A stretch of DNA of 64,000 bases, from assembly GCA_951812755.1 (NCBI GenBank), contig OX638329.1, positions 3,914,522 through 3,978,521 on the forward strand, written 5' to 3'. Made by a program: the position numbers and the translations under genes. Below, one piece after another: positions 21,815-45,638 of this stretch (its first letter is position 1; each line of letters starts with the position of its first letter). The DNA comes from an uncultured Latescibacterota bacterium. GTDB taxonomy: Bacteria > Latescibacterota > UBA2968. The notes below the pieces were generated by a model. The model saw only the letters and a program-made list of their open reading frames with translations. It made no database searches and was not told the DNA's origin.

Positions 21815-23197
21815 GTGAACAAAATGAATGTGTTATTCATCGCCGTGGATGACCTCCGCCCGCAACTCGGTTGCTACGGTCAGAATTTCGTACAGTCGCC
21901 GAACATCGATCAATTAGCCGCAGGGGGCGTCCTCTTCGAGCGGGCTTACTGCCAGCAAGCCGTGTGCGCGCCTTCTCGGGCGAGTGTTTTAAGTGGCTGC
22001 CGTCCAGATACGACGACAATTTACGATCTACAGACCCCCTTGCGGTCCGTGATGCCCGATATCCTCTCGCTGCCACAGCACTTCAAGCAGCACGGCTACG
22101 AGACGCGATCCATCGGAAAAATCTATCACCATCGAAACGATGATCTGCAAGGATGGACGACCGAACCACACGTCTCAACAGGAGATTGGAAGGGACGGGG
22201 CTACCTGACGGATGAAGCGATGGAAGTGATCGAGCGCACAGATGCCCTATTGACCGCCGAAGGCTCCACACGACGGGGTCTGGGACCGGCTTTTGAAGCC
22301 GCGGACGTTCCAGATGATGCCTATCACGACGGCAAGGACGCCGATCAGGCGATCAAGACCCTCAACGAATTGCGCGATCAACCCTTCTTCCTCGCCGTGG
22401 GCTTTCACAAACCTCATTTGCCGTTCAATGCCCCCAAGCATCACTGGGACCGTTACGACCGGGAAGCATTGCCACTCGCCCTGAATACCAGCGCGCCAGA
22501 GAACGTCACCGAGTATTCTTTAACTGAATTCGGTGAGCTTCGCGGTTACTTTGGAATGCCCAGGGAGGGACCGATACCAGAGGACCTATCGCGCACATTG
22601 GTCCACGGCTACTGCGCGTGTGTCTCGTATATGGACGCGCAGGTCGGTCGCGTACTCGACGAAGTCGAACGGCTCGGCCTCAAAGAGAACACCGTTGTAA
22701 TCCTGTGGGGAGATCACGGTTGGAAACTCGGCGAACACGGCAGCTGGTGCAAGCACACGAACTTCGACATCGATACACATGCCCCAATGATCATCCGTTC
22801 GCCAGAACGCGGCAAGCAGGGCGCAAAGGCATCCGGGCTTACGGAGTTCGTCGATATGTACCCATCGCTGTGTGACCTGTGCGATCTGCCACTGCCCGAT
22901 CATCTCGAGGGCCAGAGCTTTGTTCCCTTGATGGAGGATCCCGATAGAACATGGAAACAGGCGGCTTTCAGCCAGTATCCGCGCACGGGCGTGATGGGCT
23001 ATACCATCAAGACCGATGACTTCCGCTACACAGAATGGCAATCAAGAGATACAGGAGACGTAAAAGCACGAGAGCTTTACGATCATCGGGAAGATGCGGC
23101 GGAAAATGTCAATGCCGCGGAAGATGTTCGCTATGCCGAAACAATAAGCGAACTTGAGAAAGTGCTGAAAAAAGGTTGGGAAGCCGCGAGAGCATAG
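21815..23197 (+). CDS. Sulfatase, iduronate-2-sulfatase-like
   Basis: Type I sulfatase of 460 residues. VDDLRPQLG supplies the first metal ligands; CAPSRASVLSG is the signature with Cys51 as formylglycine precursor; WGDHGWKLGEHG (about 287-298) is typical of the iduronate-2-sulfatase-like branch. The start is a GTG with GGGAGG 4 nt upstream; an internal ATG (residue 4) is less well placed. No signal peptide is seen. Acidic uronate 2-sulfates are possible substrates, by family only. A REPIN-like element follows. Confidence 0.88.
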   Translation: MNKMNVLFIAVDDLRPQLGCYGQNFVQSPNIDQLAAGGVLFERAYCQQAVCAPSRASVLSGCRPDTTTIYDLQTPLRSVMPDILSLPQHFKQHGYETRSIGKIYHHRNDDLQGWTTEPHVSTGDWKGRGYLTDEAMEVIERTDALLTAEGSTRRGLGPAFEAADVPDDAYHDGKDADQAIKTLNELRDQPFFLAVGFHKPHLPFNAPKHHWDRYDREALPLALNTSAPENVTEYSLTEFGELRGYFGMPREGPIPEDLSRTLVHGYCACVSYMDAQVGRVLDEVERLGLKENTVVILWGDHGWKLGEHGSWCKHTNFDIDTHAPMIIRSPERGKQGAKASGLTEFVDMYPSLCDLCDLPLPDHLEGQSFVPLMEDPDRTWKQAAFSQYPRTGVMGYTIKTDDFRYTEWQSRDTGDVKARELYDHREDAAENVNAAEDVRYAETISELEKVLKKGWEAARA

Positions 23198-28561: not shown

Positions 28562-29851
28562 TCAATCGCGTTGCGACAACACATCGCGCTCATAAGTCTC
28601 TATCTCATCAAGCCAGGAAGCACCAATAGGCACATTGGCTTTGAGGCAGCACATATCCCACACAGCGGAAAACGGCATTGTCTTCATATCTTCCATCAGC
28701 GCAAGTTTTTGCGCGAGCTTGCCTTCGGCTTCGAGTTGGCGCAGGCGATCAGTCGGATCAACGAGGCCATAGAGGAGGGCTTTGCGCGTGGCGCGCGTAC
28801 CAATAACATAAGCCGCGATGCGATTGATGCTCGCATCGAAGAAATCGAGCGCGAGATACATGCGATCAATCGCATTGTGACGGGCGAGTTCCAGAAAAAC
28901 ATAGCGCACATCATCGCTAAAGAGAACGACGTGATCCGAGTCCCAGCGAATGGGACGGCTCGTGTGAATGAGCAACTTCTCGTGAAATGCAAAATGCGCC
29001 GAGAGCTTGTCGGCAATAGATTCAGTCGGATGAAAATGCCCCATATCGAGACAGAGGAGTTTGTCCCGGGTCAACGCATAATTGGCGTAAAAATCATTGG
29101 ATCCTACCGTATAATCCTCCATACCCAGGCCAAAGAGCTTGCCTTCAACCGCATCAACGCATTCGGGACCTATGCCCAGACCATCGTCAAAAACAGTATC
29201 CAATGCTTCCACCAGACGCTCGCGGGGCGTCCACCGATCAGCGGGATGGTCCTTGGCACCATCGGGAATCCAGTGATTGTTGACTACCTCATCCCCCAGC
29301 GCTTTCCCAATGGCTTCAGAGATGCGGCGGCTCGCAATACCGTGTTGAATCCAAAAATCGCGAATACCTTTATCGGGATGGCTCAGGGTAAAGCCATCGT
29401 TCGCTTTGGAATGTGCAAAATAAGTGGGATTAAAATCAATACCGATATCATGCGCCTTTGCCCAATCAACCCAACTCGTAAAGTGCTCTGGTTCCAGGGC
29501 GTCGCGATCGACGACTTCGCCGCCCGTATCGCCATAAGAAGCGTGGATATTCGCCCTGTGTGGCCCGGGCAAAAGATCAACCACTTTCTTCAAGTCTCGG
29601 CGAAGCTCATCCCCATTGCGCGCGCGACCGGGATAATTGCCCGTAGCCATAATGCCGCCACCTTCAACAGCCTCATCTTTAACTTCAAAACCCGCCACAT
29701 CGTCACCCTGCCAGCAGTGCAGCGAAATCGGCACTTCGAGTGCCCTATCCACAGCCCGTTCAATATCCACGCCAAAAGCGGCGTACTGTTCGGCAGCGTG
29801 CTTAAAATTGGCTTCAATCTGAACATCGGTAATCGGTGTTTTATAATGCAT
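28562..29851 (-). CDS. rhaA: L-rhamnose isomerase
   Basis: Enzyme of 429 residues converting L-rhamnose to L-rhamnulose. It reads like E. coli RhaA from end to end: ISLHCWQGDDVAGFE and IMATGNYPGRARN near the N-terminus, HFTSWVDWAKAHDIGIDFNP, then the metal-site segments AVEGKLFG, CLDMGHFHPTE and RWDSDHVV, and DFFDASINRIAAYVIGTR. GGAGAG precedes the ATG by 6 nt. No rhamnulokinase or aldolase is in the window. It faces a sulfatase gene across a MITE-bearing gap. Cytoplasmic. Confidence 0.95.
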   Translation of the reverse strand: MHYKTPITDVQIEANFKHAAEQYAAFGVDIERAVDRALEVPISLHCWQGDDVAGFEVKDEAVEGGGIMATGNYPGRARNGDELRRDLKKVVDLLPGPHRANIHASYGDTGGEVVDRDALEPEHFTSWVDWAKAHDIGIDFNPTYFAHSKANDGFTLSHPDKGIRDFWIQHGIASRRISEAIGKALGDEVVNNHWIPDGAKDHPADRWTPRERLVEALDTVFDDGLGIGPECVDAVEGKLFGLGMEDYTVGSNDFYANYALTRDKLLCLDMGHFHPTESIADKLSAHFAFHEKLLIHTSRPIRWDSDHVVLFSDDVRYVFLELARHNAIDRMYLALDFFDASINRIAAYVIGTRATRKALLYGLVDPTDRLRQLEAEGKLAQKLALMEDMKTMPFSAVWDMCCLKANVPIGASWLDEIETYERDVLSQRD

Positions 29852-29989
29852 TGCACTCTCCTGTAATCAAAAATAAAAGTCTGTCAAAGTCGCATCAAAA
29901 AAGGTGAAATAGGGCGATGTGTCAAGGGAAAAGCAGTGGATTTTAGCGGTAAATTTGGGTATTATGGACGACCTGATTACAAATTACTT
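29852..29989. other. Upstream region of rhaA
   Basis: This is the rhaA-side part of a 316-nt gap between divergent genes. On the minus strand it carries two TTGACA hexamers (around 29882 and 29919), either of which could be a -35, but no good -10 is correctly spaced. The rest of the gap is the MITE-like element and a short leader to the sulfatase gene. Confidence 0.4.
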
Positions 29990-30147
29990 AACTGATGTTA
30001 CGCACCTGCATAATGTCATGGGCCTGTCATTTTGAGCGCAGCGCAGCGGAGTCGAAAAATCTACTACCAACGCAGGTGGAACAGATGCTTCGGCTCCGTT
30101 CCACTCCGCTCAGCATGACAAAACCACAGATCTGCGTAACGTCAGTT
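29990..30147. mobile_element. MITE-like element with 15-bp terminal inverted repeats
   Basis: AACTGATGTTACGCA (29990-30004) and TGCGTAACGTCAGTT (30133-30147) are inverted copies with one mismatch. ACTT flanks both sides (29986-29989 and 30148-30151) as a possible target duplication. Inside lies another inverted pair, TGTCATTTTGAGCG (30025-30038) and CGCTCAGCATGACA (30107-30120), 12 of 14 matching. No coding frame is present, so a non-autonomous element is likely. It ends 20 nt before the sulfatase start and could alter its promoter. Confidence 0.65.
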
Positions 30148-30167
30148 ACTTAAAAGAAAGGAACAGC

Positions 30168-31568
30168 ATGAAACGACCGAATATATTACTGATTTACACC
30201 GACCAACAGCGGTGGGATGCCATGAGGGTGAATGGGAACACCGATATTCAAACGCCGAACCTGGATCGCCTATCAAACAAGGGTATAAACTTCGACCACT
30301 ACTTTGTTCAGAATCCCGTGTGTATGCCCAGTCGGGTGAGTTTTTTAACCGGACAATATCCCTCCACACTCGGCATTACACACATGGGTGTACCCGTGCC
30401 CAAAGACTTTGTAACAATGCCCAAATTGCTACACAATTCGGGATATCATTCCGCAAATATCGGCAAATTGCACTTTCTGCCACACGCCAATCGGGACCAC
30501 CGCGAAGTACATCCCGATTATGGATTTGACCTTATGGAAATCAGCGACGAACCCGGGTGTTACGAAGATGCGTATCGCGCCTGGGTACGCATGGAAGCAC
30601 CGGACCAACTCGATCATTTGAGCCTCGGATTGCCGCCATTGGCAGATCATTGGCACCAGATGATGGGCGTAAAAGACGGCGTGCATCACCCCGACGAACG
30701 ATTTCCCAAACACCCCATTGCCTTTAGCGGAAAAGATGAATACACACACACGGCGTGGGTGGCGAGCCGATCAATTCAATACATGGCGGAACGCGCAAAC
30801 GAAGGCAACCCGTTTTTGTGCATCGCGGGAATTTACTCCCCGCATTCGCCCTGGGTTGCACCACAGCGTTTTCTGGACCTGTACGACCCCGATCAAATTA
30901 CCCTGCCATCCTTCCCGCCAGAAGCCGATGAAAAACGCAATGAAAATCACTATGGAGATCGCGAGCTTCGCCTGGCGCGACAGGGATATTACGGCATGGT
31001 CAGCGAAGTCGATCACCATGTGGGCCGCATGTTAGACGCGCTGGATGAATTGGGCATTGCAGATGAAACAATCGTGGTCTTCACATCTGACCACGGCGAA
31101 TGGCTGGGTGAACATTTGCGCTATGGCAAAAGCTATCCGGGACACGACTGTGTGAGCCGCGTACCCCTGCTAATGCACATCCCCGGAAAAGAAGGCGGGC
31201 GTCGCGTATCAAGCATCGTCGAAGGCGTGGATGTACTCCCCACCCTGCTCGAAGCCTGCGGGGTACCCCTCCCACCCCATTTACAGGGCCAATCGCTATA
31301 TCCCGCTTTCTGCGGGGGGGAAACCCCGGACAAATCAGTCGCATTGATGGAGGCCACGGGCTGGAAAATGATACGGTCTGAGAACTATCGCTATATCGCG
31401 CATGACGATGGACGAGAATTTCTCTATGACCTGAACGCCGAATGGGGTGAATACCGCGATGTATCCGAGCATCCAGACCATACAACCTCGCTGATAGAAC
31501 ATCGGCATCTATTGATCAAACGGCTGATCGAAATGGAACGCCCCAGAAAGCGGATTTGGGGATATTAA
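30168..31568 (+). CDS. Sulfatase (alkaline-phosphatase superfamily)
   Basis: Type I sulfatase of 466 residues. YTDQQRWD gives the first metal ligands, CMPSRVSFLTG the signature (Cys52, formylglycine precursor), and FTSDHGEWLGEH (about 305-316) the second metal pair. No signal peptide. It is preceded by AAAGGAA and followed by a dehydratase and a lyase on the same strand, so it probably removes sulfate from an oligosaccharide released by the lyase. The neighbouring rhaA suggests sulfated rhamnose as one candidate; that is inference. Confidence 0.9.
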   Translation: MKRPNILLIYTDQQRWDAMRVNGNTDIQTPNLDRLSNKGINFDHYFVQNPVCMPSRVSFLTGQYPSTLGITHMGVPVPKDFVTMPKLLHNSGYHSANIGKLHFLPHANRDHREVHPDYGFDLMEISDEPGCYEDAYRAWVRMEAPDQLDHLSLGLPPLADHWHQMMGVKDGVHHPDERFPKHPIAFSGKDEYTHTAWVASRSIQYMAERANEGNPFLCIAGIYSPHSPWVAPQRFLDLYDPDQITLPSFPPEADEKRNENHYGDRELRLARQGYYGMVSEVDHHVGRMLDALDELGIADETIVVFTSDHGEWLGEHLRYGKSYPGHDCVSRVPLLMHIPGKEGGRRVSSIVEGVDVLPTLLEACGVPLPPHLQGQSLYPAFCGGETPDKSVALMEATGWKMIRSENYRYIAHDDGREFLYDLNAEWGEYRDVSEHPDHTTSLIEHRHLLIKRLIEMERPRKRIWGY

Positions 31569-31573
31569 AAGCT

Positions 31574-31635
31574 CCTCTCACATCTTGTACCTTCGTGTCT
31601 TTGTGTCTTTGTGTGAGGCCCTCTCACATCTTGTA
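31574..31635 (+). repeat. Direct repeat CCTCTCACATCTTGTA (two copies)
   Basis: The 16-mer occurs at 31574-31589 and 31620-31635. Between the copies is TCTTTGTGTCTTTGTG, itself a tandem of TCTTTGTG. The block lies in the gap before the dehydratase gene and ends 16 nt before its ribosome-binding site. It looks like a dispersed minirepeat rather than an operator. Confidence 0.6.
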
Positions 31636-31657
31636 TCTCACCTTAACAGGAGGTAAC

Positions 31658-32818
31658 ATGAAAATCGTAGATATACAAAAAACACTCTCTCTGGGTGCTG
31701 CATGCCGACACTGGTCATTATTGAAAATCATCACAGACGAAGGCATTGAAGGACTGGGTGAATGGCGCGGAGGGCAATCGGTTGATCAATTGAAGTCGAT
31801 ACTAATTGGACAAGACCCGACCAACGTGAACAAATTGCATCAAGATCACCTGTGGCGTATGCAGGGCGCGGGCGCAGGCGTGGAAATCGCGCTTTGGGAT
31901 ATTGCCGGCAAAGCTTATGGCGTACCGATGTGCGATCTCCTGGGCGGAAAGTTACGCGACAAGGTGCGGATGTATTGCGATTGCCATTCGGGTGCGTACT
32001 GGACACCAGAAGACTATAATCGACGCTGGGATGAAGTCCGGGCATCGGGTGAATTAGACCCCGTATATGAAACATCGAGCTATGTAGCGCGGGCAAAAGA
32101 GCGCGTTGCCGAGGGATTTACAGCCTTAAAATTTGATCTGGACGTTCCCAACCCCTGGAAAATGGATGTGTACGACCGGTCTGTCGGACGGCGGCAACAC
32201 GAACATATCGTAACGACAATTGAAGCATTGCGCGATGCAATTGGACCGTATATCGATTTGTCGATTGACCTGCACGGATCCTTTAACGCCATTGATGGCT
32301 TGCGAATATGCAAAGACGTGGAGCATCTCGACTTATTGTGGTTGGAAGACCCCATTCGGTGGGAATGGGGTAACGTAGATGCCCTGGCAAAAATTTGTAT
32401 GCAAACAGAAACGCCGATTTGCACAGGCGAAATCTTTTACGGTGCAAAGCTCTTTCGAGAACTCATGGAAAAGGGCGCGTGCGACTTGCTCGAACCCGAC
32501 ATACCGCGCAGTGGTGGCGCCATAGAAACGCGGCGCATCGCAGAACTGGCCGAAATGTATCACATGTCGATCGCGCCGCATTATATGGCGAGCACAGTAG
32601 CAGGCATAGCCGCCGTACACATCTGTTCCACCATACCCAACTTTCTGGCTCTGGAATATCACTCGACCAATATCCCGCTGTGGTCAACGATGTTGAATAT
32701 CAAAAATCCTATTCAAAATGGATATATCACCGTGCCAGAGGGTCCCGGACTGGGCATTGAATTAGACGAAGAAGAAATATTAAAACACCTGCCCGATGGC
32801 ACGGAATTGTGGTCTTAG
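31658..32818 (+). CDS. Enolase-superfamily sugar-acid dehydratase (mandelate racemase/muconate lactonizing type)
   Basis: Protein of 386 residues. The ATG at 31658 follows AGGAGG by 5 nt; the open frame upstream is repeat sequence. The metal and catalytic residues follow the galactonate/mannonate dehydratase pattern: Asp with His two residues on (IDLHGS), Glu in WLEDP, Glu in TGEIF, His in APHY and Glu in LEYHS. The reaction would be Mg-dependent loss of water from an aldonic or uronic-derived acid. It lies between a sulfatase and a heparinase-like lyase; the acid made from lyase products is a plausible substrate. Confidence 0.87.
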   Translation: MKIVDIQKTLSLGAACRHWSLLKIITDEGIEGLGEWRGGQSVDQLKSILIGQDPTNVNKLHQDHLWRMQGAGAGVEIALWDIAGKAYGVPMCDLLGGKLRDKVRMYCDCHSGAYWTPEDYNRRWDEVRASGELDPVYETSSYVARAKERVAEGFTALKFDLDVPNPWKMDVYDRSVGRRQHEHIVTTIEALRDAIGPYIDLSIDLHGSFNAIDGLRICKDVEHLDLLWLEDPIRWEWGNVDALAKICMQTETPICTGEIFYGAKLFRELMEKGACDLLEPDIPRSGGAIETRRIAELAEMYHMSIAPHYMASTVAGIAAVHICSTIPNFLALEYHSTNIPLWSTMLNIKNPIQNGYITVPEGPGLGIELDEEEILKHLPDGTELWS

Positions 32819-32838
32819 AAACTGAAAGGACACCAAAT

Positions 32839-35106
32839 ATGAAATTTCCATCGATTCGTCCGCCGCGCGCCAATTATATTCATCCGCTTAACGGTGAAGT
32901 GCTCACACTCTCACCCCCCGGCTTTAGCTGGTGGCGGGCTGCTGATCGGGATGCATGTCAATATCGCGTAATTGTCGCACGCGAAGAAAAACCTTATTAC
33001 GAATCCCCCCTGCTCTCCGACCCTATACACCATCCAGACCGCGTTTTTGCCCCCGGAACTTACGACTGGCATGTGCAAGCCGTTGTAAATGGTGCGGTTC
33101 GAGCGCGATCGGAAAGCCGATCTTTTGAGATTACCGATTGCGCTGCCAAACAACCCCACCCAGACGCCGCTTCACTGCTGGCGAACGTTCCAAAAGAACG
33201 CCCGCGGCTCTTTTTTCTGGCGTCCGACATGGAAGATGTGCGACGCTCGCTAACATCCACCCGAGCAGAAGCTTATGAAGCCCTGAAAAAAGACGCTGAC
33301 CACGCACTCACACTCGAACTACCGCCAGAGCCGACCTACGATCAAATTGAAAACCCTGCCGAACGCAGGCTGGCTTATGTTGAATGTTTTGGCACCATGC
33401 GAAAATATCACGATGGGGGCATGCGAAGTCTTGCCCTATTTTACTTACTCACTGGAGAAAAGCGATATGGCGAGGCAGCACGGCGCTTTATTGTTGACGC
33501 CGCGCAGTGGGATGTGGAGGGCATATCCTCTATTCTCGCGCCTTATGGCGACGAAGTCGGCCTTGGATTGCTCAGAGCGGGCGCAGAAGTCTATGACTGG
33601 ATCTACGATATTTTCACCAAAGACGAACGCGAACTCGTCGCTCGCATGCTCGGCGCGCGGACAGACCAGATGATCCGCAGACTGGAGAAAAGCGATTATA
33701 CATACACGCCCGAAGAAAGTCACAACGGTCGCCTACCCGGCTTTTTGCTCGAACACGCCATTGCATGCGCTGAAGATGAACGCGCGCCTTCATGGGCGGA
33801 ATACGCACTAAAACTTATTGCGACAAATTTTCCCCATTGGGCCGGGCATGAAGGGGGCTGGGCGCAAGGTGTTCCCTACGGCTTGTCTTACAACTCGCGG
33901 GACGCAATGCCCTTTCACTCCTGGACATTGGCGACCGGGCACGATATATGGCTCAAACCCTATTATCAGAACATGCCGTGGTTCTTTTATTACGTCGTTT
34001 CCCCAATTGGCGAGCTTATGCCATTTGGCGATACCGAAGATCAACCCGTTCGCGCCTCGCAGGCCAGAACCTTTCTCCAGTTTCACGGTCTCAGATTGAA
34101 AAATCACCGGCTATGCGCCTGGGCAGATCAGGTGCGCGATCCCGATGGGCAGCCCGCAGAGATCGACCCCTTCCCCGGCATTCTCCTCGAAGATAAGCCC
34201 ATCCCGTCAAAAGGAGATTCAGTGCCACAAGATCGTGCCTTTCGAGGCGTTGGCTGGGGCGCATTGCACAGCGATATCGAACATCCAGATAGTGATTTTA
34301 TGGTACTCTTCCGTTCATCGCCCTTTGGCGGCGTAAGCCACGGCCATGCGAGCCAAAATGATTTTGCAGTAATGAAAGGCGGACGCGCTTTGATCTGCGC
34401 TGGTGGCCTTCGCTATCCGCATCACGGCACGCCATTTCACAACGAATACGCACAGCACTCAATTTCACACAACTGCGTTCTCGTCAATGGCAAAGGGGCG
34501 ATCAACCGGGATGGCAACCGCGGCGGCGAAATTATCGATTTTAAGACCACAGATCCGTTTGGCTATATCTGCGGCGAAGCAGAGAACGCTTACGGAGATC
34601 GGTTGAACCGATACAGGCGACATCTCGTGATGATCCGCCCATCGATCACAATTCTCGTCGATGAATTGGAAGCCCCCGAAGCATCGACATTCCAGTGGTT
34701 GCTACACGCATTCGAAAAATTTGATCTCGACCTGACGACCGTCACCTCCAACCGCAAGGGCGCATCATTAAAGGGTCAGCTTTTTGGCTCAACAGACCTT
34801 CGCCTCAGCCAGACAGATGAATGGCCCGTACCACCAGATAAAGGCTATCCCACACTCGATAAGGAATTGCCGGAAAAACGATGGCATTTTACAGCCGAGA
34901 CAGAGCGCGTAAAACGCTGTCGAATTGCCGCGATTTTCTCTGTCCGAGGTCCCGGCGAGAGCGATCCCGACTTTTCGATAACTGTATCAGAAAATCAAAT
35001 CGCGCTTTCGGCGGGAAACACAACGACAAAAATAAACCTGTGCCCCGATGAAAGCACCGTTCTTTCTCTATCATCTGGATCAGAAGATTTGACCATTCAG
35101 ACCTGA
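32839..35106 (+). CDS. Heparinase II/III-like polysaccharide lyase (DUF4962 N-terminal domain)
   Basis: Protein of 755 residues from the ATG at 32839 (AAAGGA 8 nt upstream). An N-terminal DUF4962/Fn3-like domain (about 1-105; PGFSWWRAAD, YDWHVQAV) is followed by an alpha/alpha toroid (about 115-470) and a C-terminal Hepar_II_III beta domain with the conserved SHGHASQNDF (about 505-515) and HSISHNCVLVNG. Lyases of this type cleave uronate-containing glycans such as heparin, alginate or ulvan-like polymers. No obvious signal peptide is visible, which is unusual. Its end overlaps the TRAP permease gene by 10 nt, tail to tail. Confidence 0.86.
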   Translation: MKFPSIRPPRANYIHPLNGEVLTLSPPGFSWWRAADRDACQYRVIVAREEKPYYESPLLSDPIHHPDRVFAPGTYDWHVQAVVNGAVRARSESRSFEITDCAAKQPHPDAASLLANVPKERPRLFFLASDMEDVRRSLTSTRAEAYEALKKDADHALTLELPPEPTYDQIENPAERRLAYVECFGTMRKYHDGGMRSLALFYLLTGEKRYGEAARRFIVDAAQWDVEGISSILAPYGDEVGLGLLRAGAEVYDWIYDIFTKDERELVARMLGARTDQMIRRLEKSDYTYTPEESHNGRLPGFLLEHAIACAEDERAPSWAEYALKLIATNFPHWAGHEGGWAQGVPYGLSYNSRDAMPFHSWTLATGHDIWLKPYYQNMPWFFYYVVSPIGELMPFGDTEDQPVRASQARTFLQFHGLRLKNHRLCAWADQVRDPDGQPAEIDPFPGILLEDKPIPSKGDSVPQDRAFRGVGWGALHSDIEHPDSDFMVLFRSSPFGGVSHGHASQNDFAVMKGGRALICAGGLRYPHHGTPFHNEYAQHSISHNCVLVNGKGAINRDGNRGGEIIDFKTTDPFGYICGEAENAYGDRLNRYRRHLVMIRPSITILVDELEAPEASTFQWLLHAFEKFDLDLTTVTSNRKGASLKGQLFGSTDLRLSQTDEWPVPPDKGYPTLDKELPEKRWHFTAETERVKRCRIAAIFSVRGPGESDPDFSITVSENQIALSAGNTTTKINLCPDESTVLSLSSGSEDLTIQT

Positions 35107-36980
35107 GCAGATCGATAGTTTGAGACCGCGATGACACCGGCGGTGATTAGCGCGATACCCTGCAAATAAAGGCGGGTATCTCCCGATGGCGTGAGGAATA
35201 AGAGAAGTGCTGCGGCGAGTAAAAGGCCGCGCTGGTAAGTGGGCAACGGGGCAAAAGCATGCCCGGCAGCAGCGGCTGATAGGGGAAAAATACCGATCAG
35301 GACGACGAGGATATTGGCGATTATAGCAGTCAAATCAGAAGACAAGAGCAAAATTTCTGGATGCAGCACAAAGGCATAGGGCAAAGCGAAGCCCACAAGG
35401 GCAAAGCGGAAAGCCGTGACACCAGTTTGCATAATACTCGCCTTTGCAATCGCGGCAGCCGTGTACGCAGCCAGCGCGACCGGAGGCGTAACCATAGACA
35501 TCATGCCAAAATAAAAAATAAACAGATGCGCTCCCAATGGCACAATGCCGAGGTCGCTCAGAACAGGTCCCACCAGAGTTGCCATAAGCAGATAACACAC
35601 GGCCGAAGGCAAACCCATGCCCAGGATAATGGTGGAGATCATCAGGAGAATTAACGCCAGAATAATATTGTTTTGCGCCAGTGGCAACAAAGTGCTCGGA
35701 AGTTTGGTACCAATACCCGTGAGCGTCACAACGCCGATAATAATACCCACGCATGAAGCCGCTGCAATAAGCGAGACACCGCCGTGCGCGGCCCTTTCCA
35801 ATGCGCGGATCATAGCGCGGGGACCAACGCGCGTTGTGGAGTTGAACGCACCGACAATCAGGACAAAGAGCAGGGCGATACTCACAGCGCGAAAAGGCGT
35901 GTACCCCAAAATGAGAAATACAATAAGTGTTATGAAAGCGACGAGAAACACCAGGCCCCGGGGTCTGGGAGGACGTTCCTGAACATCTCCATCGCCTTCA
36001 GACGCACCAATGCGTTTGGCGTGAAAATGGACAATCAGCAAAAGAGCCGCGTAATAGAGGATCGCAGGGACCAGAGCGGCTTTAATAATTTCCAAATACG
36101 TGACAGCGGGTTCGACAATTTCGAGCATCATATACGCGCCCGCACCCATAATCGGCGGAACGAGCGCACCGCCCGAACTCGCTGCGGCTTCAATGCCGCC
36201 AGCCACAGTTGGACGAAATCCCGTTGATCGCATCAGCGGAATGGTAAACGTGCCAGTAGTCGCCGTATTAGCCACGGCACTGCCCGAAAGCGACCCCATC
36301 ATACCCGAAGAAATAACAGCCACTTTGGCTGGACCACCGGTGCTATGGCGAAAAATGCGGCGAGCCGTATTCAGAATATATCCCGTGGCGCCGGTCTCTT
36401 CGAGCACAGTGCCAAAAAGCACAAAAAGAAAAACGTAGGTAAACATCACTTTCAATGCGATGCCAAAAACGCCCTGGGAGTGGAGATAGGTCTGAGAGAC
36501 AATGCGTTCCCAGTTATATCCTCGGTGGGGAAAGAGCCAATCGGGCAGGATATATCCATAAGCTGCATAAATCAGAAAGGTGAGTGCGAGTAGGGGCAGG
36601 GTGAGACCAATGGCGCGACGAGTGGCTTCCAGAACCAGAATGAGGCCGATGAGACCGACAACGTGATCGAGCGCGTGTTCGAGTCCCGCGCGATTGCCCA
36701 GAGATTGACCATTGAGCCAGTAAACTTGAAAGAAGGATTCCGTTTGGGTCAGGACATAACCAAAACAGAAAACAACAGCCAGAACCAAAAAGAGATCGAG
36801 AATCTGGAGAGATTTGTTGGAGTGAATCGGATATTTGAGAAATACAAGACACAAGCCCAGCAGGGCAAAAACCGATAGCTGGGCTTGTGGTGAGAGTTGT
36901 GGATGATTGACTTCAACCAGAATAAAAAGACCGAGTAGCGCGGAGAGAATGCGAAACAGGTGGGAATAGAGGCGCGTCAT
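35097..36980 (-). CDS. TRAP transporter permease, DctQ-DctM fused (TAXI type)
   Basis: Protein of 627 residues with about 18 hydrophobic segments: small-subunit-like segments first, then the large DctM-like domain with SGSAVANTATTGTF, PPIMGAGAYMM and GMGLPSAVCYLL. The fused form is typical of TAXI-TRAP systems, which use Na+ or H+ gradients. The start at 36980 is preferred; an ATG 7 codons earlier lies inside a dispersed repeat. No clear Shine-Dalgarno is visible because the repeat abuts the start. The binding protein gene follows in the upstream position on the same strand. Confidence 0.9.
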   Translation of the reverse strand: MTRLYSHLFRILSALLGLFILVEVNHPQLSPQAQLSVFALLGLCLVFLKYPIHSNKSLQILDLFLVLAVVFCFGYVLTQTESFFQVYWLNGQSLGNRAGLEHALDHVVGLIGLILVLEATRRAIGLTLPLLALTFLIYAAYGYILPDWLFPHRGYNWERIVSQTYLHSQGVFGIALKVMFTYVFLFVLFGTVLEETGATGYILNTARRIFRHSTGGPAKVAVISSGMMGSLSGSAVANTATTGTFTIPLMRSTGFRPTVAGGIEAAASSGGALVPPIMGAGAYMMLEIVEPAVTYLEIIKAALVPAILYYAALLLIVHFHAKRIGASEGDGDVQERPPRPRGLVFLVAFITLIVFLILGYTPFRAVSIALLFVLIVGAFNSTTRVGPRAMIRALERAAHGGVSLIAAASCVGIIIGVVTLTGIGTKLPSTLLPLAQNNIILALILLMISTIILGMGLPSAVCYLLMATLVGPVLSDLGIVPLGAHLFIFYFGMMSMVTPPVALAAYTAAAIAKASIMQTGVTAFRFALVGFALPYAFVLHPEILLLSSDLTAIIANILVVLIGIFPLSAAAAGHAFAPLPTYQRGLLLAAALLLFLTPSGDTRLYLQGIALITAGVIAVSNYRSAQV

Positions 36981-36985
36981 GTTGA

Positions 36986-37100
36986 AACCACAGATGAACA
37001 CGGATAAACACAGATGGTAACATCATTGTTATTCCGAACCTGGACGCTCATTGTCGCACGATGCGCCTTTATCAGTGTCCATCTGTGTCTATCTGTGGTT
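36986..37100. repeat. ACCACAGATGAACAC-type repeat pair
   Basis: AACCACAGATGAACACGG... (36986-37017) and an inverted partial copy ending CTATCTGTGGTT (37079-37100) bracket 61 nt between the TRAP permease and binding-protein genes. The same words recur at 56424-56456 (27 of 32 positions). The pair could form a long hairpin and may influence expression of the permease gene downstream. Confidence 0.6.
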
Positions 37101-37106
37101 GCTTTT

Positions 37107-38057
37107 TTAATCCTGCCAGATACCAATTTCTTTGAAGTATTTTATCGCACCCGGATGAAAAGGCGTACCCGTGTCCCGAACGATATTATTGGGATTTATA
37201 GCCTTGCCTGCCGGGTGTTTTTTAACGACTTCCGCGCGGTGCTCATACAGGGTCTTGGTAAAATTGTAAACCGTATCTTCGCTCAAACTCGCCCGCGTGA
37301 TGAGATGCATAGAACCGACATTCATCCCGGCAAAATCTTCTGTTTGTCCCCGGTAGGTACCGGCGGGAATCGTTGCGGCAAAAAAGAAGGGATAGGTCTC
37401 AAAAAGGCTTTGTTTAGCCGATTCATCGTAGGGAATAAAATAAATATCCTGAGACGCGCTGGCCTGGGTGATCGAGGCCGTGGGTACTGCACCCCCTAAA
37501 AAAGCCGCAGCAGCCGAACCATCGGCGAGCATGTCAACAGTTCCCGCCTGCGTATTGTAAAGCGGTGTGAAATCGTCATAAGTGACCCCGTGTGCGTTCA
37601 GGATGGGTTTTAAGAAATATTCAAATCCCGCGCCCGCTGGCCCAACGACAACGCGATTGCCCATGAGATCGCTCAAGCTATTGACGCCCGCGTTTTGTGG
37701 CGCAATAAAAAGCGCGACATTAGGCGCCAATGTCATAACTGCATTGATATTCTGTTTCTCTCCCCACGCGCCTTCTCCGCGCACGGCAAAATAGGAAATG
37801 GCAGCATTGGCCAGCGCAAAATCCAATTCTCCACTCGAAAGGCGGCGAATATTCTCCTGCGTACCTTTGGTAGCCTCGGCAGAAACCTCCCAGGGCATGT
37901 GATCGTTGACAACCTGGGCAATTGCGCCCCCCACGACAAAAAATGCACCGCCGGGCGGCGCCGTGCCCACGCTGAGAAATTTACCCTCTCGATCCTGAGG
38001 CGCGCCACACCCCATGAACATGGCTACCGCGAAGATGAGTAACACTTTGTACTGCAT
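37107..38057 (-). CDS. TAXI-family TRAP solute-binding lipoprotein
   Basis: Protein of 316 residues with a lipoprotein signal ending FMGC (Cys17). The mature part has TAPPGGAFFVVGGAIAQVV (the TAXI start motif), GTQENIRRLSSGELDFALANAA, and VGPAGAGFEYFLKPIL, all typical of TAXI periplasmic receptors. GAAAGGACT precedes the ATG by 5 nt. It delivers a substrate, usually an organic acid or sugar acid, to the fused permease encoded next on the strand. Confidence 0.93.
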   Translation of the reverse strand: MQYKVLLIFAVAMFMGCGAPQDREGKFLSVGTAPPGGAFFVVGGAIAQVVNDHMPWEVSAEATKGTQENIRRLSSGELDFALANAAISYFAVRGEGAWGEKQNINAVMTLAPNVALFIAPQNAGVNSLSDLMGNRVVVGPAGAGFEYFLKPILNAHGVTYDDFTPLYNTQAGTVDMLADGSAAAAFLGGAVPTASITQASASQDIYFIPYDESAKQSLFETYPFFFAATIPAGTYRGQTEDFAGMNVGSMHLITRASLSEDTVYNFTKTLYEHRAEVVKKHPAGKAINPNNIVRDTGTPFHPGAIKYFKEIGIWQD

Positions 38058-38150
38058 ACCAGTCCTTTCAAGTTTATAAATCCACCCTTCAACGCCCTCA
38101 ATTTTTGACCAAATACTGATTCAATCCCCTTACTTCCAAAATAACAATGA

Positions 38151-38197
38151 CGCAGATTTAATCCGTGAAATCTGCGCCATCCCTTTCATCCGCGATC
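38151..38197. repeat. ATCCGTG-type repeat with perfect 9-bp hairpin
   Basis: CGCAGATTT (38151-38159) and AAATCTGCG (38168-38176) make a perfect hairpin with loop AATCCGTG. The following CCATCCCTTTCATCCGCGATC is nearly the same as sequence at 45208-45228. The block ends at the stop codon of the propeller gene on the minus strand. Confidence 0.55.
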
Positions 38198-39509
38198 AAT
38201 TCGCCGCAATACAATACAGGTGCTCAGTGCCGCGCAAATACAACTCGTCGCCCGCGATAATGGGAGATGCGCCAGTGCCTTCGTCGAGTTTATTTTTTCC
38301 GAGCACTTCAAATTCGCCACCGTTCTTGATCACAAATGTCACGCCGTCCAGACCGGCGAGGTAAATGCGGTCACCTGTGCCAACCAGCGGAGAGTATATT
38401 TTTCCCAATCCCTGGAGTCGTGTGGGGCCGAAAACTGTTTCGCCTGTTTTGGCATTGAAACAGAACAAAATGTTAGAAGTTTTTCTCATGCAGTAGATAT
38501 TGTTTCCGGAAAGAAGAGGCGAGGAAACATAAGGGGTGTAGTTGCCAGTAACAGTCCAAAGCACGGCATCTGTACCCGTGATATCGCCTTTAGCTTTGTC
38601 CAGTGAAATCGCCAGCATGGCAGGGTCTCTATGGCCACTTGTAACATAGACGATGCCATCGGCATATAGGGGTGTTGGAATGACATTTGACCCCAGTCCC
38701 GCGCATTCCCACAAGACATCGCCAGTTTTGAGATCGTAACTTCGGGTCTTCCTGCTCGCGCTCACAATAATCTGTTGCGTACCATTGTGTTCGACAACGA
38801 TGGGCGTGACCCACGTCGTTCGTTCCGGTCGCGCCGTGCGCCAGATTTCCTCACCCGTGCGTTTATCCAGCGCAACAATAAACGAATCGCCCTGGTGATC
38901 CCAGTTGATAATCAGCGTATTGCCGTGAATAGTCGGCGATGTACCTTCTCCAAAAGTACCTGCGATTCTCTGATCGCCAAGGTCCTTATCCCATTTCAAA
39001 TTGCCGTCGAAATCAAAGCAATACAAGCCCCATGAACCGTAAAATGCGTACAGGTGTTCGCCATCCGTAACACCCGATGTAGCAGCATAATTAGCCGTTT
39101 TATGGGTGCCTTCGTGGGGCAGCGCCTCCTTCACGGTCTTTTCCCACACCACATCGCCACTTTTGCGATCCAGTGCAAGGAGCTTAAATTGATAGATATG
39201 AGTGGGTAAAGGTTTTCTGCCTTTCTGAGCGACTTCTACGGTTTTGTCGGTCTTAACCGCTGTCTGGACAAAAATTTTATCGCCCCATACAATGGGCGTG
39301 GCGTAGCCCGTACCCGGAATTTTTGCTTTCCAGCGGATATTGGTATCTTCGCTCCACTCCACAGGGGGATTGCCCGTATCCACGAGTCCATTTGCATTCG
39401 GTCCCCGCAGATGGGGCCAGTTGTGTTTCTCCTGCGCCGCATGGTGTTTTGCCTGAACCAGAATTGGAATCAAACAGAACCCCATCAAAATCAAAAGCCA
39501 TTTCTTCAT
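38196..39509 (-). CDS. Secreted PQQ-type beta-propeller protein
   Basis: Protein of 437 residues with a signal peptide (hydrophobic 4-18, cleavage after VQA). It consists of repeated PQQ blades such as LLALDRKSGDVVWE, IVALDKRTGEEIWR and LFCFNAKTGETVFG. The mature start HNWPHLRGPNANGLV is the form common in planctomycete-like outer-membrane assembly-B (BamB) relatives. No quinoprotein catalytic residues stand out, so a binding or scaffold role in the periplasm is as likely as dehydrogenase activity. AAGGAGT is 8 nt before the ATG. Confidence 0.85.
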   Translation of the reverse strand: MKKWLLILMGFCLIPILVQAKHHAAQEKHNWPHLRGPNANGLVDTGNPPVEWSEDTNIRWKAKIPGTGYATPIVWGDKIFVQTAVKTDKTVEVAQKGRKPLPTHIYQFKLLALDRKSGDVVWEKTVKEALPHEGTHKTANYAATSGVTDGEHLYAFYGSWGLYCFDFDGNLKWDKDLGDQRIAGTFGEGTSPTIHGNTLIINWDHQGDSFIVALDKRTGEEIWRTARPERTTWVTPIVVEHNGTQQIIVSASRKTRSYDLKTGDVLWECAGLGSNVIPTPLYADGIVYVTSGHRDPAMLAISLDKAKGDITGTDAVLWTVTGNYTPYVSSPLLSGNNIYCMRKTSNILFCFNAKTGETVFGPTRLQGLGKIYSPLVGTGDRIYLAGLDGVTFVIKNGGEFEVLGKNKLDEGTGASPIIAGDELYLRGTEHLYCIAAN

Positions 39510-39655
39510 CTCAAACTCCTTTCTGTGATGTGATATTTTGCAATTCAGAGATTCAAAATATCCGTTTAATGAAGGGTTGTCAAACCTTTATTTTTTGTTT
39601 ACGTTGGGGATGAAGGTCGATGAACTAACCACAGACCACTAAAAAAAGGAATTTT

Positions 39656-41182
39656 ATGCCTGCTCCTCTTTATCCCAAACCCATTCGCTGGTGGCCCGCG
39701 ATCGCGGTCGGTGTGCTAATAATCATTGTATTATCGGCGATCTGGATTCCCGACAGACCAGACCGTCAGATGCAGGTTATGCCGACAATATTGGTCTGCT
39801 CAATCGGCTCTCTTTTGCTCTGTCTCTGGTTTTTTGCTTTTTCTCGAACGAGTCGGACAATTCGCCTACGGGGTCTAAGTATTCTTATACTCCTGATCAT
39901 CCTGACGGTTTCATTATTCCAAATTCGCGGTTTTACAGGCGATTTGGCTCCCAAGATAGAGTGGCGCTGGTCTTCTGTTACATCTATATCTATGGCGGAA
40001 CAGTCTTCAGATGGTCCCGATACAGACTATCCTCAATTTTTGGGTCCACACCGCAACGCCATCCTCGAAAGAATAAAACTGGAATCCGATTGGAGCCAGC
40101 ATCCCCCCAAATTACTCTGGCGCGTACCCGTTGGTGAAGCCTATTCTGCCTTTGCCGTTGTTGGACGCTCTGCCGTGACTCAAGAGCAAAAAGGCGAAGA
40201 CGAAACCGTGGCTTGTTACGATCTCTTGACCGGAAAAGAGAAATGGCGTCACAGCGCGCGCGCGCGATATGGAACCGCGATTGCCGGAATTGGTCCGCGA
40301 GCCACGCCCACCATATCGGGCAACCGCGTTTATTCTTTTGGCGCAACCGGCATCCTCACCTGTCTCGATTTGGAAACCGGTCGAGAAATCTGGTCGCGCG
40401 ACACCGTAAAAGAAACCGGTGCGCGCGTTAAAGAATGGGGCATAAGCGGTTCGCCCCTCGTTTTAGACGACAAAGTGATCGTAAGTCCGGGCGGACAAAA
40501 CGAGCAATCGCTGATGGCATACCACCGCGAAACCGGTGATATTATTTGGGGTGGTGGTCGTGTAAGAGCGGGTCATAGCTCCCCCAGCCTGATCTCCATA
40601 GCTGAAATGAATCAAGTACTCATTTTTAACAGGGGGCAAGTCGCGGGTCACGATCCAAATTCCGGCAAATTGCTATGGGAATATCCCTGGAATGAGATGA
40701 CGCAACACGTTGCCCAACCCATTCCACTACCCGATGACCGCATATTTGTATCAACAGGTTATGGCATTGGTAGTGAATTGATTCAAATTTCAAAAAATAG
40801 TCGGGATGAATTTACTGCCGAACGAATATGGAAAAGCCCTCGTCTCAAAGCCAAATTTGCCAATATGGTCTATAAAGACGGATATATTTACGGACTGGAC
40901 GACGGTGTCCTCGTGTGTTTGGATCTCGCAGACGGACAGCGCAAATGGAAACGAGGGCGCTATGGCCACGGGCAACTCATTCTGGTAGATGACCTTTTGC
41001 TCATCCAGACCGAATCGGGCGATGTCGTCCTCGTCGATGCCTCGCCAATTGAACACAACGAACGCGCGCGCTTCCCCGCTTTGGGCAGCCATACCTGGAA
41101 TGCTCCCACACTTGCCGCACCCTATCTCCTCGTGCGAAATGATCGAGAAGCAGCATGCTATGAACTTTCACTTAAAAAATAA
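39656..41182 (+). CDS. Membrane-anchored PQQ-type beta-propeller protein
   Basis: Protein of 508 residues. Three hydrophobic segments (about 13-31, 42-62, 72-90) precede a periplasmic propeller of seven or eight blades (VACYDLLTGKEKWR, LTCLDLETGREIWS, LVCLDLADGQRKWK). The propeller starts YPQFLGPHRNAI, the same type of start as in the three other propeller genes here. Membrane anchoring sets it apart. It converges with the ABC permease gene 11 nt on. Role unknown. Confidence 0.83.
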   Translation: MPAPLYPKPIRWWPAIAVGVLIIIVLSAIWIPDRPDRQMQVMPTILVCSIGSLLLCLWFFAFSRTSRTIRLRGLSILILLIILTVSLFQIRGFTGDLAPKIEWRWSSVTSISMAEQSSDGPDTDYPQFLGPHRNAILERIKLESDWSQHPPKLLWRVPVGEAYSAFAVVGRSAVTQEQKGEDETVACYDLLTGKEKWRHSARARYGTAIAGIGPRATPTISGNRVYSFGATGILTCLDLETGREIWSRDTVKETGARVKEWGISGSPLVLDDKVIVSPGGQNEQSLMAYHRETGDIIWGGGRVRAGHSSPSLISIAEMNQVLIFNRGQVAGHDPNSGKLLWEYPWNEMTQHVAQPIPLPDDRIFVSTGYGIGSELIQISKNSRDEFTAERIWKSPRLKAKFANMVYKDGYIYGLDDGVLVCLDLADGQRKWKRGRYGHGQLILVDDLLLIQTESGDVVLVDASPIEHNERARFPALGSHTWNAPTLAAPYLLVRNDREAACYELSLKK

Positions 41183-41193
41183 ATTAACGCGCC

Positions 41194-44100
41194 TCATATC
41201 TCCTGTTTCAACGCGGGCAATAGTGGTGCTCGCAGGGCGAAGAAAACAGCTATCACACTTGCTATGAGACCCGCGCCATATATGATGACAAGTGTGAGAG
41301 CCAGCGATCCCCATGGAATTAACGCACCATAGCTCATGACATGGGGAGCTACAGCAATAAGCGCAGATATGCTACCGATTGCCAGACCCACGAACATTAA
41401 AAAACCATTCTCCGCGAGCAACATGCGCGACAGCACAGCGCGGCGAAATCCAAAGGCGCGCAGAACCGCCAATTCACCGCGTCTTTCAATAACATTTCTC
41501 AACAAGACGATTCCCAATCCGAGCGTACCCAACAGCAGGCCCAATCCCCCCAGTGTCTGAAAGGTGGAGAGATAGGTATTTTCGACCTCCTGAAAATGCG
41601 CGAGTTTTTGCGCTGTGGATACGGCGTCTAACCCAATATCTTTTAATCGGTTTTCCAAAAGCGCAGTAAGCTGAACGGGTTGTTGCGTTTCAACGAGAAA
41701 AGCATCATATCCACTCTGATCGGGAAAGTGCCGCAAAAAATTGTCTTCGGAAATCAGCAATTCACTTTGAAAAATACTCGTCTTTAACAAGCCCACCAAT
41801 CTCAGCCTGACAGTTTCCCCTATTTCATTCTGCAACACAATATCATCGCCCAATTGCTTGTGCAAGATCCACATAGCCGAATTGTAATCCCCAATTGCCG
41901 GGATCACATCCGCGCCCAGATCCCCGGATAATAGAGTCCAGGGATTTTCCACTTCGGTACTCATTTGCTGAAATGTAAAACCACCTCGCTGACGTAGAGC
42001 TTCGGGAACGCCCAAAACGCGCGGGCTTTCGGGCTGATAAAGATTGAGACAACTCGCATCTTCCCCGGGCAAAATGCGCAGCGGGATAAACCGCGCCTGA
42101 TTTAAGAGTTCTGTATCTGCTTGCGAAAATCCGAGTTCAAATTGCCCGTCTTTTGAATTGAAATCCCAATAAATCGGCACATCAACTTCGGCAATGAGAG
42201 CAAAGCCGCCCGTACCAGAGGCTTTGTCCTGCGCGATATTTTGAGTCAGGTCAGTTCGCCTATTCGCGCCTACTGCAACAATGACAAAACACGCACAACC
42301 GATGAGTGAGGCACACAGCAAACTGCGCGTGGGCTGCCGTTTGCTATTTTGTACCCCCATCCCAATAATACCCTCCTTTATAGCGCGATGCCCGCGTCTA
42401 AACCAGAGCGAGAGAAAGCATAACCCCGAAACCATCCACAGCGCGCCACTAACAAAAAACAAACCTGTACCCGTTGATGGACCCACCGCTGCCGCTCCCC
42501 CGAGACTGAGGGCGGCGAGGATGAGGCTACCCAGAGCGTACCATTTTGTACGCGGCTTTGCACGCACCACTTCCGTAATACCCGATAATAATGCGCGAAC
42601 AGAAATATTGCCCAAACGGCGGAGCGTGAGCCAGATTGCCAGCAGGATCACGATTAGTGAAATGGCATATCCCAATAAAAGACTTGATGCGTGGATGTGA
42701 AGCGAGAGATCAGATGTGCCAACCGCGCCCACCCAATAAGTACGCAATCCCACCATAATCAGATAGGCATAGAAAACACCGCCTACCAACCCTGTGATGC
42801 CACCCACACCGGCCAGCACAAGGCCCTCACGGCTAAAGAGTCTGCGAATTTTTTTTCCCGTATATCCCGACACCATCCGCATCCCGACTTCTCTGCCCCG
42901 CTGCTCCACACTCAGGCGAAATAATAACCCAACCAGAAGAGCTGCAGAAATAATCAGGAATTGACTGAATGCAATAAACAGCCCGCTAAAGTCCGTTGCC
43001 CCCGCAGAAGCGGCCAGGCCCTGCTGTTTGACGGGCTGAAATGTCAGGCCAACCGATTCGGGCGCGATGTTTTTGCGCAAGCTATCCTCAAATAGCTTTG
43101 TCGTCGTTTCAATATCTCGCCCCGCAATAGCCCCAATGCGTACAGCGGTTAATACGCCAAATCGACTTTGCCACAATCGCTGTCCAGTCGCGGCAGACAC
43201 AAAGGCTTTTGGCGCATCGCGATAAGTATCCCAATAATCTTCATCTTTCGGACGAACACGACTCAGGTCTATGGGAAAAGGGGCCTCCCAATCAGCCATA
43301 TTATTCGCATCGCCCAGGCCCGGATAATCGGGAGACAACTTTTCATCCGCCCCCAATCCCGTCATTGCCACAATACCCTTGAGTTGGAATGTCGCCCAAC
43401 GGGTCAGGAGTTTTTCCCCCAGCGCGACTTCGTAATAGGCAATTTTTACTTCATCCCCAACCCGCGCGTTCAAATCCTCAGCCGCCCAGGTATTCAGCAA
43501 AATACCATCTTCCCCGAGTTGCAGTGATCCATCTACAATCTGAAAGGTCCCCAGATTTCCAACATCTAACGCAGAAATTGTAGAATAGGGCAATTCTCTT
43601 TTCCCCACCTGTGTGGTATTCGCCAGATAGGTGAGAATGGACATGTGAGGCGCGTTTAATTCGGCAGATACTTTTTGAATAGTTTCCGTGATATGGGATT
43701 TGAGAATAAACTGCGTGCTCTCAATAGCGAAATAATCGGTCTCTCGGCGGATGACAATGCCGAGATCATCGGGCGTTGCAACGCGGGAAAGTGCTTCCTG
43801 AATGTCTGTATCAGGATCACCCGACACCAGCAATGTATTCACGCGGCCTCTTTGACCCAATGCTTTTTGTAAAACCGGCAACGACAGATACGCATTAAAA
43901 GGAACTGTCTGGCGGGCGAACAGGCCAAAGCGCCCCATTCCCCTATCGGGAAGCACGCCTGCGAGCGTCAGTCGAATTGTTTGAACTGCATCATCACCAC
44001 GTCCAAATAGCGATTCGCGGTGAATATCATCTGATTGCTCAAAAGACAGCAGAATGGCATCGCCAATCTGTGCATTGAGTTCTTTTTGGAGGGATTCATT

Positions 44101-44493
44101 GACGACAACCGATGGAAATATGCCCTCGCTCGTCAACTCGGGCAATATTTGATCAAACAGATTTGCAAAGCGATTATCAATACCCTGAATCTGCACGCGA
44201 GAAGCCCGCGTATTCGATCCCGCATGAACAGCTGTTCCGCTCAGGCTAATGGCCGATACGACATCTTGAGTATCGAGTTCACGCTCGAGATCGCGTTCCA
44301 GATTCGCGCGGAAAAATCGCTCGGATACCAGGGCGTGATCAATTTTGCCCAGGCGACTCAGCGACAAATCCCGCAAGCTGCCGCGCACGGAATCGCCCAC
44401 GATCAAAGCACCCGTCAGCACAGCCGTCGCCACTGCCACACCGAGCACAACAGCCAGATTAATCCGCCAGAAATAAATCAGACTTCGACGCAC
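41194..44493 (-). CDS. ABC exporter permease, FtsX/LolE type (large)
   Basis: Protein of 1099 residues with an N-terminal membrane segment (about 12-34), a large periplasmic domain, a central group of segments (about 500-650, RGREVGMRMVSGYTGKKI being the FtsX coupling helix), and a C-terminal group (about 980-1090, RRGELAVLRAFGFRRAV). Tandem FtsX permeases of this size resemble YbbP rather than LolC/E. The start overlaps the ATPase stop by 16 nt, so both are made together. Substrate is unknown; lipids, lipoproteins or hydrophobic small molecules are typical. Confidence 0.88.
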   Translation of the reverse strand: MRRSLIYFWRINLAVVLGVAVATAVLTGALIVGDSVRGSLRDLSLSRLGKIDHALVSERFFRANLERDLERELDTQDVVSAISLSGTAVHAGSNTRASRVQIQGIDNRFANLFDQILPELTSEGIFPSVVVNESLQKELNAQIGDAILLSFEQSDDIHRESLFGRGDDAVQTIRLTLAGVLPDRGMGRFGLFARQTVPFNAYLSLPVLQKALGQRGRVNTLLVSGDPDTDIQEALSRVATPDDLGIVIRRETDYFAIESTQFILKSHITETIQKVSAELNAPHMSILTYLANTTQVGKRELPYSTISALDVGNLGTFQIVDGSLQLGEDGILLNTWAAEDLNARVGDEVKIAYYEVALGEKLLTRWATFQLKGIVAMTGLGADEKLSPDYPGLGDANNMADWEAPFPIDLSRVRPKDEDYWDTYRDAPKAFVSAATGQRLWQSRFGVLTAVRIGAIAGRDIETTTKLFEDSLRKNIAPESVGLTFQPVKQQGLAASAGATDFSGLFIAFSQFLIISAALLVGLLFRLSVEQRGREVGMRMVSGYTGKKIRRLFSREGLVLAGVGGITGLVGGVFYAYLIMVGLRTYWVGAVGTSDLSLHIHASSLLLGYAISLIVILLAIWLTLRRLGNISVRALLSGITEVVRAKPRTKWYALGSLILAALSLGGAAAVGPSTGTGLFFVSGALWMVSGLCFLSLWFRRGHRAIKEGIIGMGVQNSKRQPTRSLLCASLIGCACFVIVAVGANRRTDLTQNIAQDKASGTGGFALIAEVDVPIYWDFNSKDGQFELGFSQADTELLNQARFIPLRILPGEDASCLNLYQPESPRVLGVPEALRQRGGFTFQQMSTEVENPWTLLSGDLGADVIPAIGDYNSAMWILHKQLGDDIVLQNEIGETVRLRLVGLLKTSIFQSELLISEDNFLRHFPDQSGYDAFLVETQQPVQLTALLENRLKDIGLDAVSTAQKLAHFQEVENTYLSTFQTLGGLGLLLGTLGLGIVLLRNVIERRGELAVLRAFGFRRAVLSRMLLAENGFLMFVGLAIGSISALIAVAPHVMSYGALIPWGSLALTLVIIYGAGLIASVIAVFFALRAPLLPALKQEI

Positions 44494-45627: not shown

Positions 45628-45638
45628 AATTTTTTCTG

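Follow-up and report, generated by a model that had tools for sequence, protein, structure and literature searches.

The interval from 28562 to 38057 of a 64,000-nucleotide stretch of the genome of an uncultured Latescibacterota bacterium (contig OX638329.1; hereafter, the window) places a gene for L-rhamnose isomerase beside genes for a sulfatase, an enolase-superfamily enzyme, a lyase and a TRAP-TAXI importer, raising the question of whether these genes form one pathway. The original prediction held that they do, and that the pathway serves an ulvan-like sulfated rhamnose-uronate polymer taken up by the TRAP-TAXI system. Profile matches confirmed all five gene types where they had been placed, and the rhamnose isomerase, the sulfatase and the uronate-type lyase are real. 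The genes are laid out as rhaA on the minus strand, then sulfB, the enolase-superfamily gene and the lyase gene on the plus strand, and then TRAP-TAXI on the minus strand. Gaps of 89 bp and 20 bp separate the sulfatase gene from the enolase-superfamily gene and the latter from the lyase gene, respectively, and the lyase and TRAP genes are convergent with a 10-bp overlap of their 3' ends. These strands and gaps indicate three transcription units rather than one operon. We conclude that the interval is probably the junction of three independent units, namely rhaA, a uronate-cleaving operon, and a TAXI-TRAP importer that belongs to another block of genes. For this explanation, gene identities, layout, conserved catalytic residues and synteny were observed directly, and from them we infer substrates and fluxes.

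Comparison with related genomes disagrees with a single pathway. The lyase and RhaA were searched for in 60 genomes and the enolase-superfamily enzyme, TRAP and sulfatase in 26, the window's own genome included in both sets; neighbourhoods were then read, and an adjacency table was compiled from gene positions for the 15 genomes of the family (G000-G014, G000 being the window's own). Adjacency of rhaA and sulfB was found in 11 of the 14 family genomes having both, that of sulfB and the enolase-superfamily gene in 10 of 12, that of the enolase-superfamily and lyase genes in 10 of 12, and that of the lyase and TRAP genes in 9 of 13. In G005 the lyase gene falls on two contigs, C93 and C150, and was scored as adjacent on both sides, and G010 was scored as apart for lyase and TRAP solely because both genes reach contig ends, making it uninformative. 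All adjacent cases are confined to the window's genus, where 10 of the 11 genomes are near-identical (about 90-98% at the protein level), and the counts therefore do not amount to independent observations. In G008, the most distant congener (lyase 79% identical; a single 5.66-Mb contig), the module is split: rhaA, a phosphoesterase gene and sulfB lie at 5.37 Mb, and the genes for the enolase-superfamily enzyme, lyase, TRAP, TAXI and a PQQ propeller (PQQ1) lie at 0.07 Mb, a distance of 366 kb if the contig closes into a circle. The lyase ortholog is missing from G009, where the enolase-superfamily and TRAP genes are still neighbours. In the family's four remaining genera no pair from the module was seen together, the short contigs of G014 being partly uninformative; the lyase gene is 158 kb from TRAP in G012, and in G013 the lyase, enolase-superfamily and TRAP genes each lie on a separate contig, none of the three having either of the others in its sequenced neighbourhood. 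The closest lyases in the database are 63-93% identical to that of the window. Two further details of these genomes were observed. The G009 lyase gene is absent from between its neighbours as if cleanly deleted (L063, 7401-7450), the genome being otherwise 92-98% alike, and the G012 ortholog of the enolase-superfamily gene (L093, G012:C14, 9409-10229) is interrupted by stop codons, whereas an intact lyase gene is present elsewhere.

The frequency of some of these genes in the genome also bears on their presence in the interval. The window's genome, a single 6.53-Mb contig that is 99.6% complete, carries at least 106 sulfatase matches, a lower bound from scoring 63 of 229 first-look candidates, and 78 enolase-superfamily matches. 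The chance that a random 9.5-kb stretch contains a sulfatase gene is about 0.14-0.28, and for an enolase-superfamily gene it is about 0.11; because both are abundant in the genome, finding them in the interval is unsurprising. Two more sulfatase genes lie within the window, at 5415-7103 and 21815-23197, the former followed immediately by a gene for an XPB/RAD25-like helicase (7108-8796). Polysaccharide loci in sulfatase-rich genomes should be read with caution, as chance neighbours of rhamnose and lyase genes are frequent there, and comparison among relatives tells which genes truly belong together.

The first unit, rhaA (28562-29851, minus strand), is probably monocistronic, and a terminator-like hairpin of 15 pairs, a pattern match only, lies past it at 28539-28506. 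Its product matches PF06134 (608 bits) and passes two NCBIfam RhaA models (NF002203, 635.5 bits against a cut-off of 572; the second, 591.9 against 585), so that the isomerase step of a RhaA-RhaB-aldolase pathway is present. A rhamnulokinase and an aldolase, listed as missing in the original prediction, are indeed absent from the interval, but a search located a kinase-like gene and a class II aldolase elsewhere in the genome. The RhaB-like kinase is encoded at 5.986 Mb, 2.0 Mb from the interval, and the aldolase, the only PF00596 match in the genome, at 3.120 Mb, 0.8 Mb away; the best NCBIfam families for the aldolase fall below their cut-offs (60.2 on the rhamnulose-1-phosphate aldolase model, where 170 is required). 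The aldolase gene is part of a PVM-like microcompartment locus (L073, G000:C1:3110000-3129999) with PduL, an aldehyde dehydrogenase and all the tested PVM-type components (3 BMC-P, 2 BMC-H), which also holds genes for a sulfatase, an MFS transporter, acetate kinase and an enolase-superfamily protein. Such a microcompartment is described as degrading fucose and rhamnose (PMC4207490), and one is reported for Latescibacteria (PMC4454575). RhaA was found in 22 of the 60 genomes, a match in G048 (E 8.8e-4) being left out of the count, and all 22 have RhaB (E<=1.2e-65) and 21 the microcompartment aldolase. Since 9 of the 22 lack a lyase ortholog, the most likely role of RhaA is in rhamnose use at large, without a tie to the lyase. 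It would isomerize L-rhamnose to L-rhamnulose, after which the pathway, judging from homology, would most likely run through the rhamnulokinase encoded far away and the PVM-like microcompartment's class II aldolase. A search of the available papers gave no match for Latescibacter together with rhamnose isomerase, and the main text of two papers on sponge Latescibacterota (PMC12993501, PMC8163846), as far as it was available, mentions neither rhamnose nor sulfatases.

A divergent gap of 316 bp (29852-30167), occupied by a phosphoesterase gene in several relatives, separates rhaA from the second unit, which begins with sulfB (30168-31568, plus strand). S1 formylglycine sulfatases carry the motif C/S-x-P-x-R, which is present in the Cys-x-Pro-x-Arg form in SulfB as CMPSR at residue 52 (PF00884, 169 bits); its second-best solved relative is 6hhm, which we take to be an ulvan sulfatase. 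The enolase-superfamily gene (31658-32818, plus strand; PF13378, 185 bits) likely starts at ATG 31658, after AGGAGG, rather than at TTG 31556, and encodes an acid-sugar dehydratase-like enzyme whose best solved relative is 2qq6 (E 5e-72). The description of this enzyme as galactonate-dehydratase-like holds as a resemblance, but the DgoD cut-off is missed (best NCBIfam model NF010624, 199.6 bits against 311). A route through L-rhamnonate by way of this enzyme was rejected, the L-rhamnonate dehydratase model scoring 72 bits against a cut-off of 393.

The last gene of the second unit encodes the lyase (32839-35106, plus strand; likely start ATG 32839), in which a DUF4962 domain (PF16332, 82.2 bits; cut-off 28.7) is followed by a heparinase II/III-like C-terminal domain (PF07940, 56.6 bits; cut-off 24), the domain pair of polysaccharide lyase (PL) family 15. 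By sequence, its closest solved relatives are the oligoalginate lyase Atu3025 (3a0o, E 3.5e-45) and then BIexoHep (6lja, 8e-31), and Foldseek ranks the same two first (3.4e-35 and 6.7e-31), with TM-scores of only about 0.35. All 10 aligned relatives, including one from Gilvimarinus (42% identical), keep H295, Y347 and H501, which align with the catalytic residues H311, Y365 and H531 of Atu3025 and H337, Y390 and H555 of BIexoHep given in PMC11921355 and PMC7904915, with H531 of Atu3025 taken from the title of structure 3afl. On this sequence evidence the lyase is PL15-like, PL15 being the family to which oligoalginate lyases and exolytic heparin lyases belong. Judging by eye, as was done for signal peptides throughout, we found none in the sulfatase, the enolase-superfamily enzyme or the lyase, and a secreted endo-lyase is absent from the interval, as predicted. 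The unit is probably a cytosolic operon that would desulfate short uronate oligosaccharides and cleave them by beta-elimination, the dehydratase presumably acting on an aldonate or a uronate-derived acid. Its substrate would be alginate- or glycosaminoglycan-like rather than ulvan. The scanned neighbours of lyase relatives in a member of the Verrucomicrobiia (L114) and one of the Opitutaceae (L115) gave no hint of a substrate.

The third unit consists of a fused TRAP permease (35097-37001, minus strand; TIGR02123, 543 bits against a cut-off of 320.65) and an adjoining TAXI substrate-binding protein (37107-38057, minus strand; TIGR02122, 266 bits against 84) with a lipoprotein-like N-terminus (MGC, by eye), the gene pair of a TAXI-TRAP system. 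PQQ1, a PQQ/BamB-like propeller (38196-39509, minus strand; PF13360, 111 bits), is a conserved partner of TAXI-TRAP and belongs to this unit or lies just upstream of it. Farther along the minus strand (41194-47453) are genes for a MacB-like permease, an ABC ATPase and a glycosyltransferase, the remainder of a block in which TAXI-TRAP is found in another family. In that family (f2), G016 and G017 have the order glycosyltransferase, ABC, MacB, PQQ1, TAXI, TRAP, the same genes as at 37107-47453 of the window, and neither genome has a lyase ortholog. The window's block has a second PQQ gene (39656-41182) inserted. Because the block runs from 37107 to 47453, the right boundary of the interval as originally drawn cuts through it. 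TRAP orthologs (61-81% identical) span the family and the next family, and are present in G011, G015-G020 and G025, all without a lyase ortholog. The TAXI proteins characterized in PMC11574862 bind glutamate-like small acids, and nothing in the TAXI evidence points to an oligosaccharide ligand. Together with its place in a block lacking the lyase, this speaks against TAXI-TRAP as the importer of the proposed pathway. The unit would import a small organic acid as part of the PQQ/MacB/ABC block, separate from the second unit, and the Latescibacterota TAXI-TRAP importer should be read in a context other than that of the lyase.

Several results weigh against three independent units. The adjacency of sulfB and the enolase-superfamily gene in 10 of the 11 genus genomes, and that of lyase and TRAP in all nine assessable genus genomes, G008 included, are also what a functional link would predict, although most of these genomes share 90-97% identity in the proteins concerned and do not count as independent cases. 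The RhaB-like kinase, whose best family is the rhamnulokinase TIGR02627, scores 459.7 bits, under the curated 527.95, and since RhaB and the aldolase are found as well in genomes that lack RhaA, they are not tied to it exclusively. Finally, the AlphaFold model of the lyase is weak (pLDDT 64.6, pTM 0.48), and its fold search serves solely as backing for the sequence result.

Other explanations were weighed. The least unlikely is that rhaA and sulfB form a functional pair, in which a cytosolic sulfatase would remove sulfate from L-rhamnose sulfate (or from a rhamnose-sulfate disaccharide) brought into the cell, leaving the product to RhaA, with the lyase, enolase-superfamily and TRAP genes as later neighbours. 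Theirs is the only adjacency universal in the genus (11 of 11 genomes, G008 and G009 included), and because of this a cytosolic rhamnose-sulfate route keeps a place among the possibilities. Against it, the sulfB orthologs of G011 and G012 (54-59% identical) do not lie near rhaA, and the contigs of G014 are too short to tell; moreover, the two genes are divergent, a phosphoesterase gene stands between them in several genomes, and the window's genome is rich in sulfatases. It is rather unlikely that the second unit and TAXI-TRAP together form a genus-specific uronate or aldonate module, with TRAP importing a sugar acid, the enolase-superfamily enzyme dehydrating it and the lyase supplying or trimming it, and rhaA unrelated. 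The linkage of the enolase-superfamily, lyase, TRAP, TAXI and PQQ1 genes in G008 and close relatives agrees with such a module, as does the persistence of the enolase-superfamily and TRAP genes as neighbours in the lyase-less G009, but TRAP orthologs are more widely spread than the lyase and accompany MacB, ABC and PQQ genes in family f2, and the lyase and TRAP strands converge.

The single ulvan-type pathway is quite unlikely. In its favour, all the gene types occur together, the nearest genomes preserve their order wherever contigs are long enough to show it, rhamnulokinase-like and aldolase genes exist elsewhere in the genome, and 6hhm ranks second among the solved relatives of the sulfatase. 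Set against this are the split in G008, the separation in other genera, and the retention of TRAP in genomes without the lyase. In addition, PMC8511951 describes ulvan routes as passing through a glycoside hydrolase (GH) of family GH88/GH105 or GH3 and ulvan lyases as belonging to PL24, PL25, PL28 and PL40, whereas the lyase here is of PL15 type and no unsaturated uronyl hydrolase of GH88/GH105 reaches the cut-off in the 99.6%-complete genome (PF07470, best 24.2 bits against 26.6, 13 of 13 candidates scored; GH3 not searched). G008 has no match, and one is present in Gilvimarinus and in 3 of 14 control genomes. The lyase family, the missing GH88/GH105 and the broken linkage rule out an ulvan pathway as the best reading; a family typical of alginate, and a rhaA that genome comparison separates from the rest, are largely the outcomes that the original prediction had itself set against its proposal. 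We also considered the lyase as a possible P29-type ulvan oligosaccharide dehydratase, an enzyme for which the literature consulted mentions no heparinase domain. Very unlikely is a combination in which rhaA and sulfB salvage rhamnose sulfate in the cytosol for the distant microcompartment methyl-pentose pathway and were joined in the genus to the PL15-like uronate lyase operon, so that a single intracellular unit would deal with the rhamnose part and the uronate part of a sulfated oligosaccharide.

Other features of the window were also noted. GTG-rich repeats such as TTCGTGTCTTTGTGTCTTTGTG, mostly intergenic, lie at 31592-31613, 36988-37015 and 56426-56453, and a second GTG-rich motif has two copies in the window (0 and 3 mismatches) against 0 expected in shuffles. 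Promoter-like sites were uninformative (9 found against 12.0 expected). A minus-strand run at 46152-59183 encodes a glycosyltransferase, a halogenase-like FAD enzyme, an AMP-binding enzyme, a TonB receptor, PQQ propellers, a radical SAM/HemN-like protein, an Fe-alcohol dehydrogenase and an aldehyde dehydrogenase, and is possibly a biosynthetic cluster.

Among known systems, the window's lyase shares with Atu3025 (PL15_1) and BIexoHep (PL15_2), as described in PMC7904915 and PMC11921355, the DUF4962 and heparinase II/III-like domains and the His/Tyr/His residues, but it is only about 20% identical to them and cannot be placed in a PL15 subfamily, appears by eye to have no signal peptide, and adjoins sulfatase and enolase-superfamily genes. 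The Gilvimarinus sp. 2_MG-2023 locus (L116), apparently a uronan locus, encodes a lyase 42% identical over 735 residues. Unlike that of the window, this lyase has a signal peptide (by eye) and adjoins a TonB receptor, a PF14592 (PL6-type) lyase, and GntR/FCD and FecR regulators, and no sulfatase or rhamnose gene was recognized among the open reading frames scanned within about 8 kb. The ulvan loci of Formosa agariphila, as presented in PMC8511951, have in common with the interval a lyase, a sulfatase and a rhamnose theme, and differ in that here GH88/GH105 stays below the cut-off, the lyase is of PL15 type and the interval is without SusCD. VcGluP likewise combines a TAXI substrate-binding protein with a fused permease, but its Y45 and Q93 are replaced by F and N in the window's TAXI protein (aligned through TtGluBP). 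The ligand therefore likely differs from that of VcGluP, and glutamate as the ligand is not supported.

The rhamnose genes resemble the PVM-type catabolism of Planctomycetes and Verrucomicrobia as set out in PMC4207490 and PMC4454575, with which they share RhaA, a RhaB-like kinase, a class II aldolase, PduL, aldehyde dehydrogenase, acetate kinase, BMC-H and BMC-P. They differ in that rhaA, rhaB and the microcompartment locus are here 0.8-2.9 Mb apart, which suggests that rhamnose catabolism in Latescibacterota is scattered over the chromosome and probably proceeds via a microcompartment.

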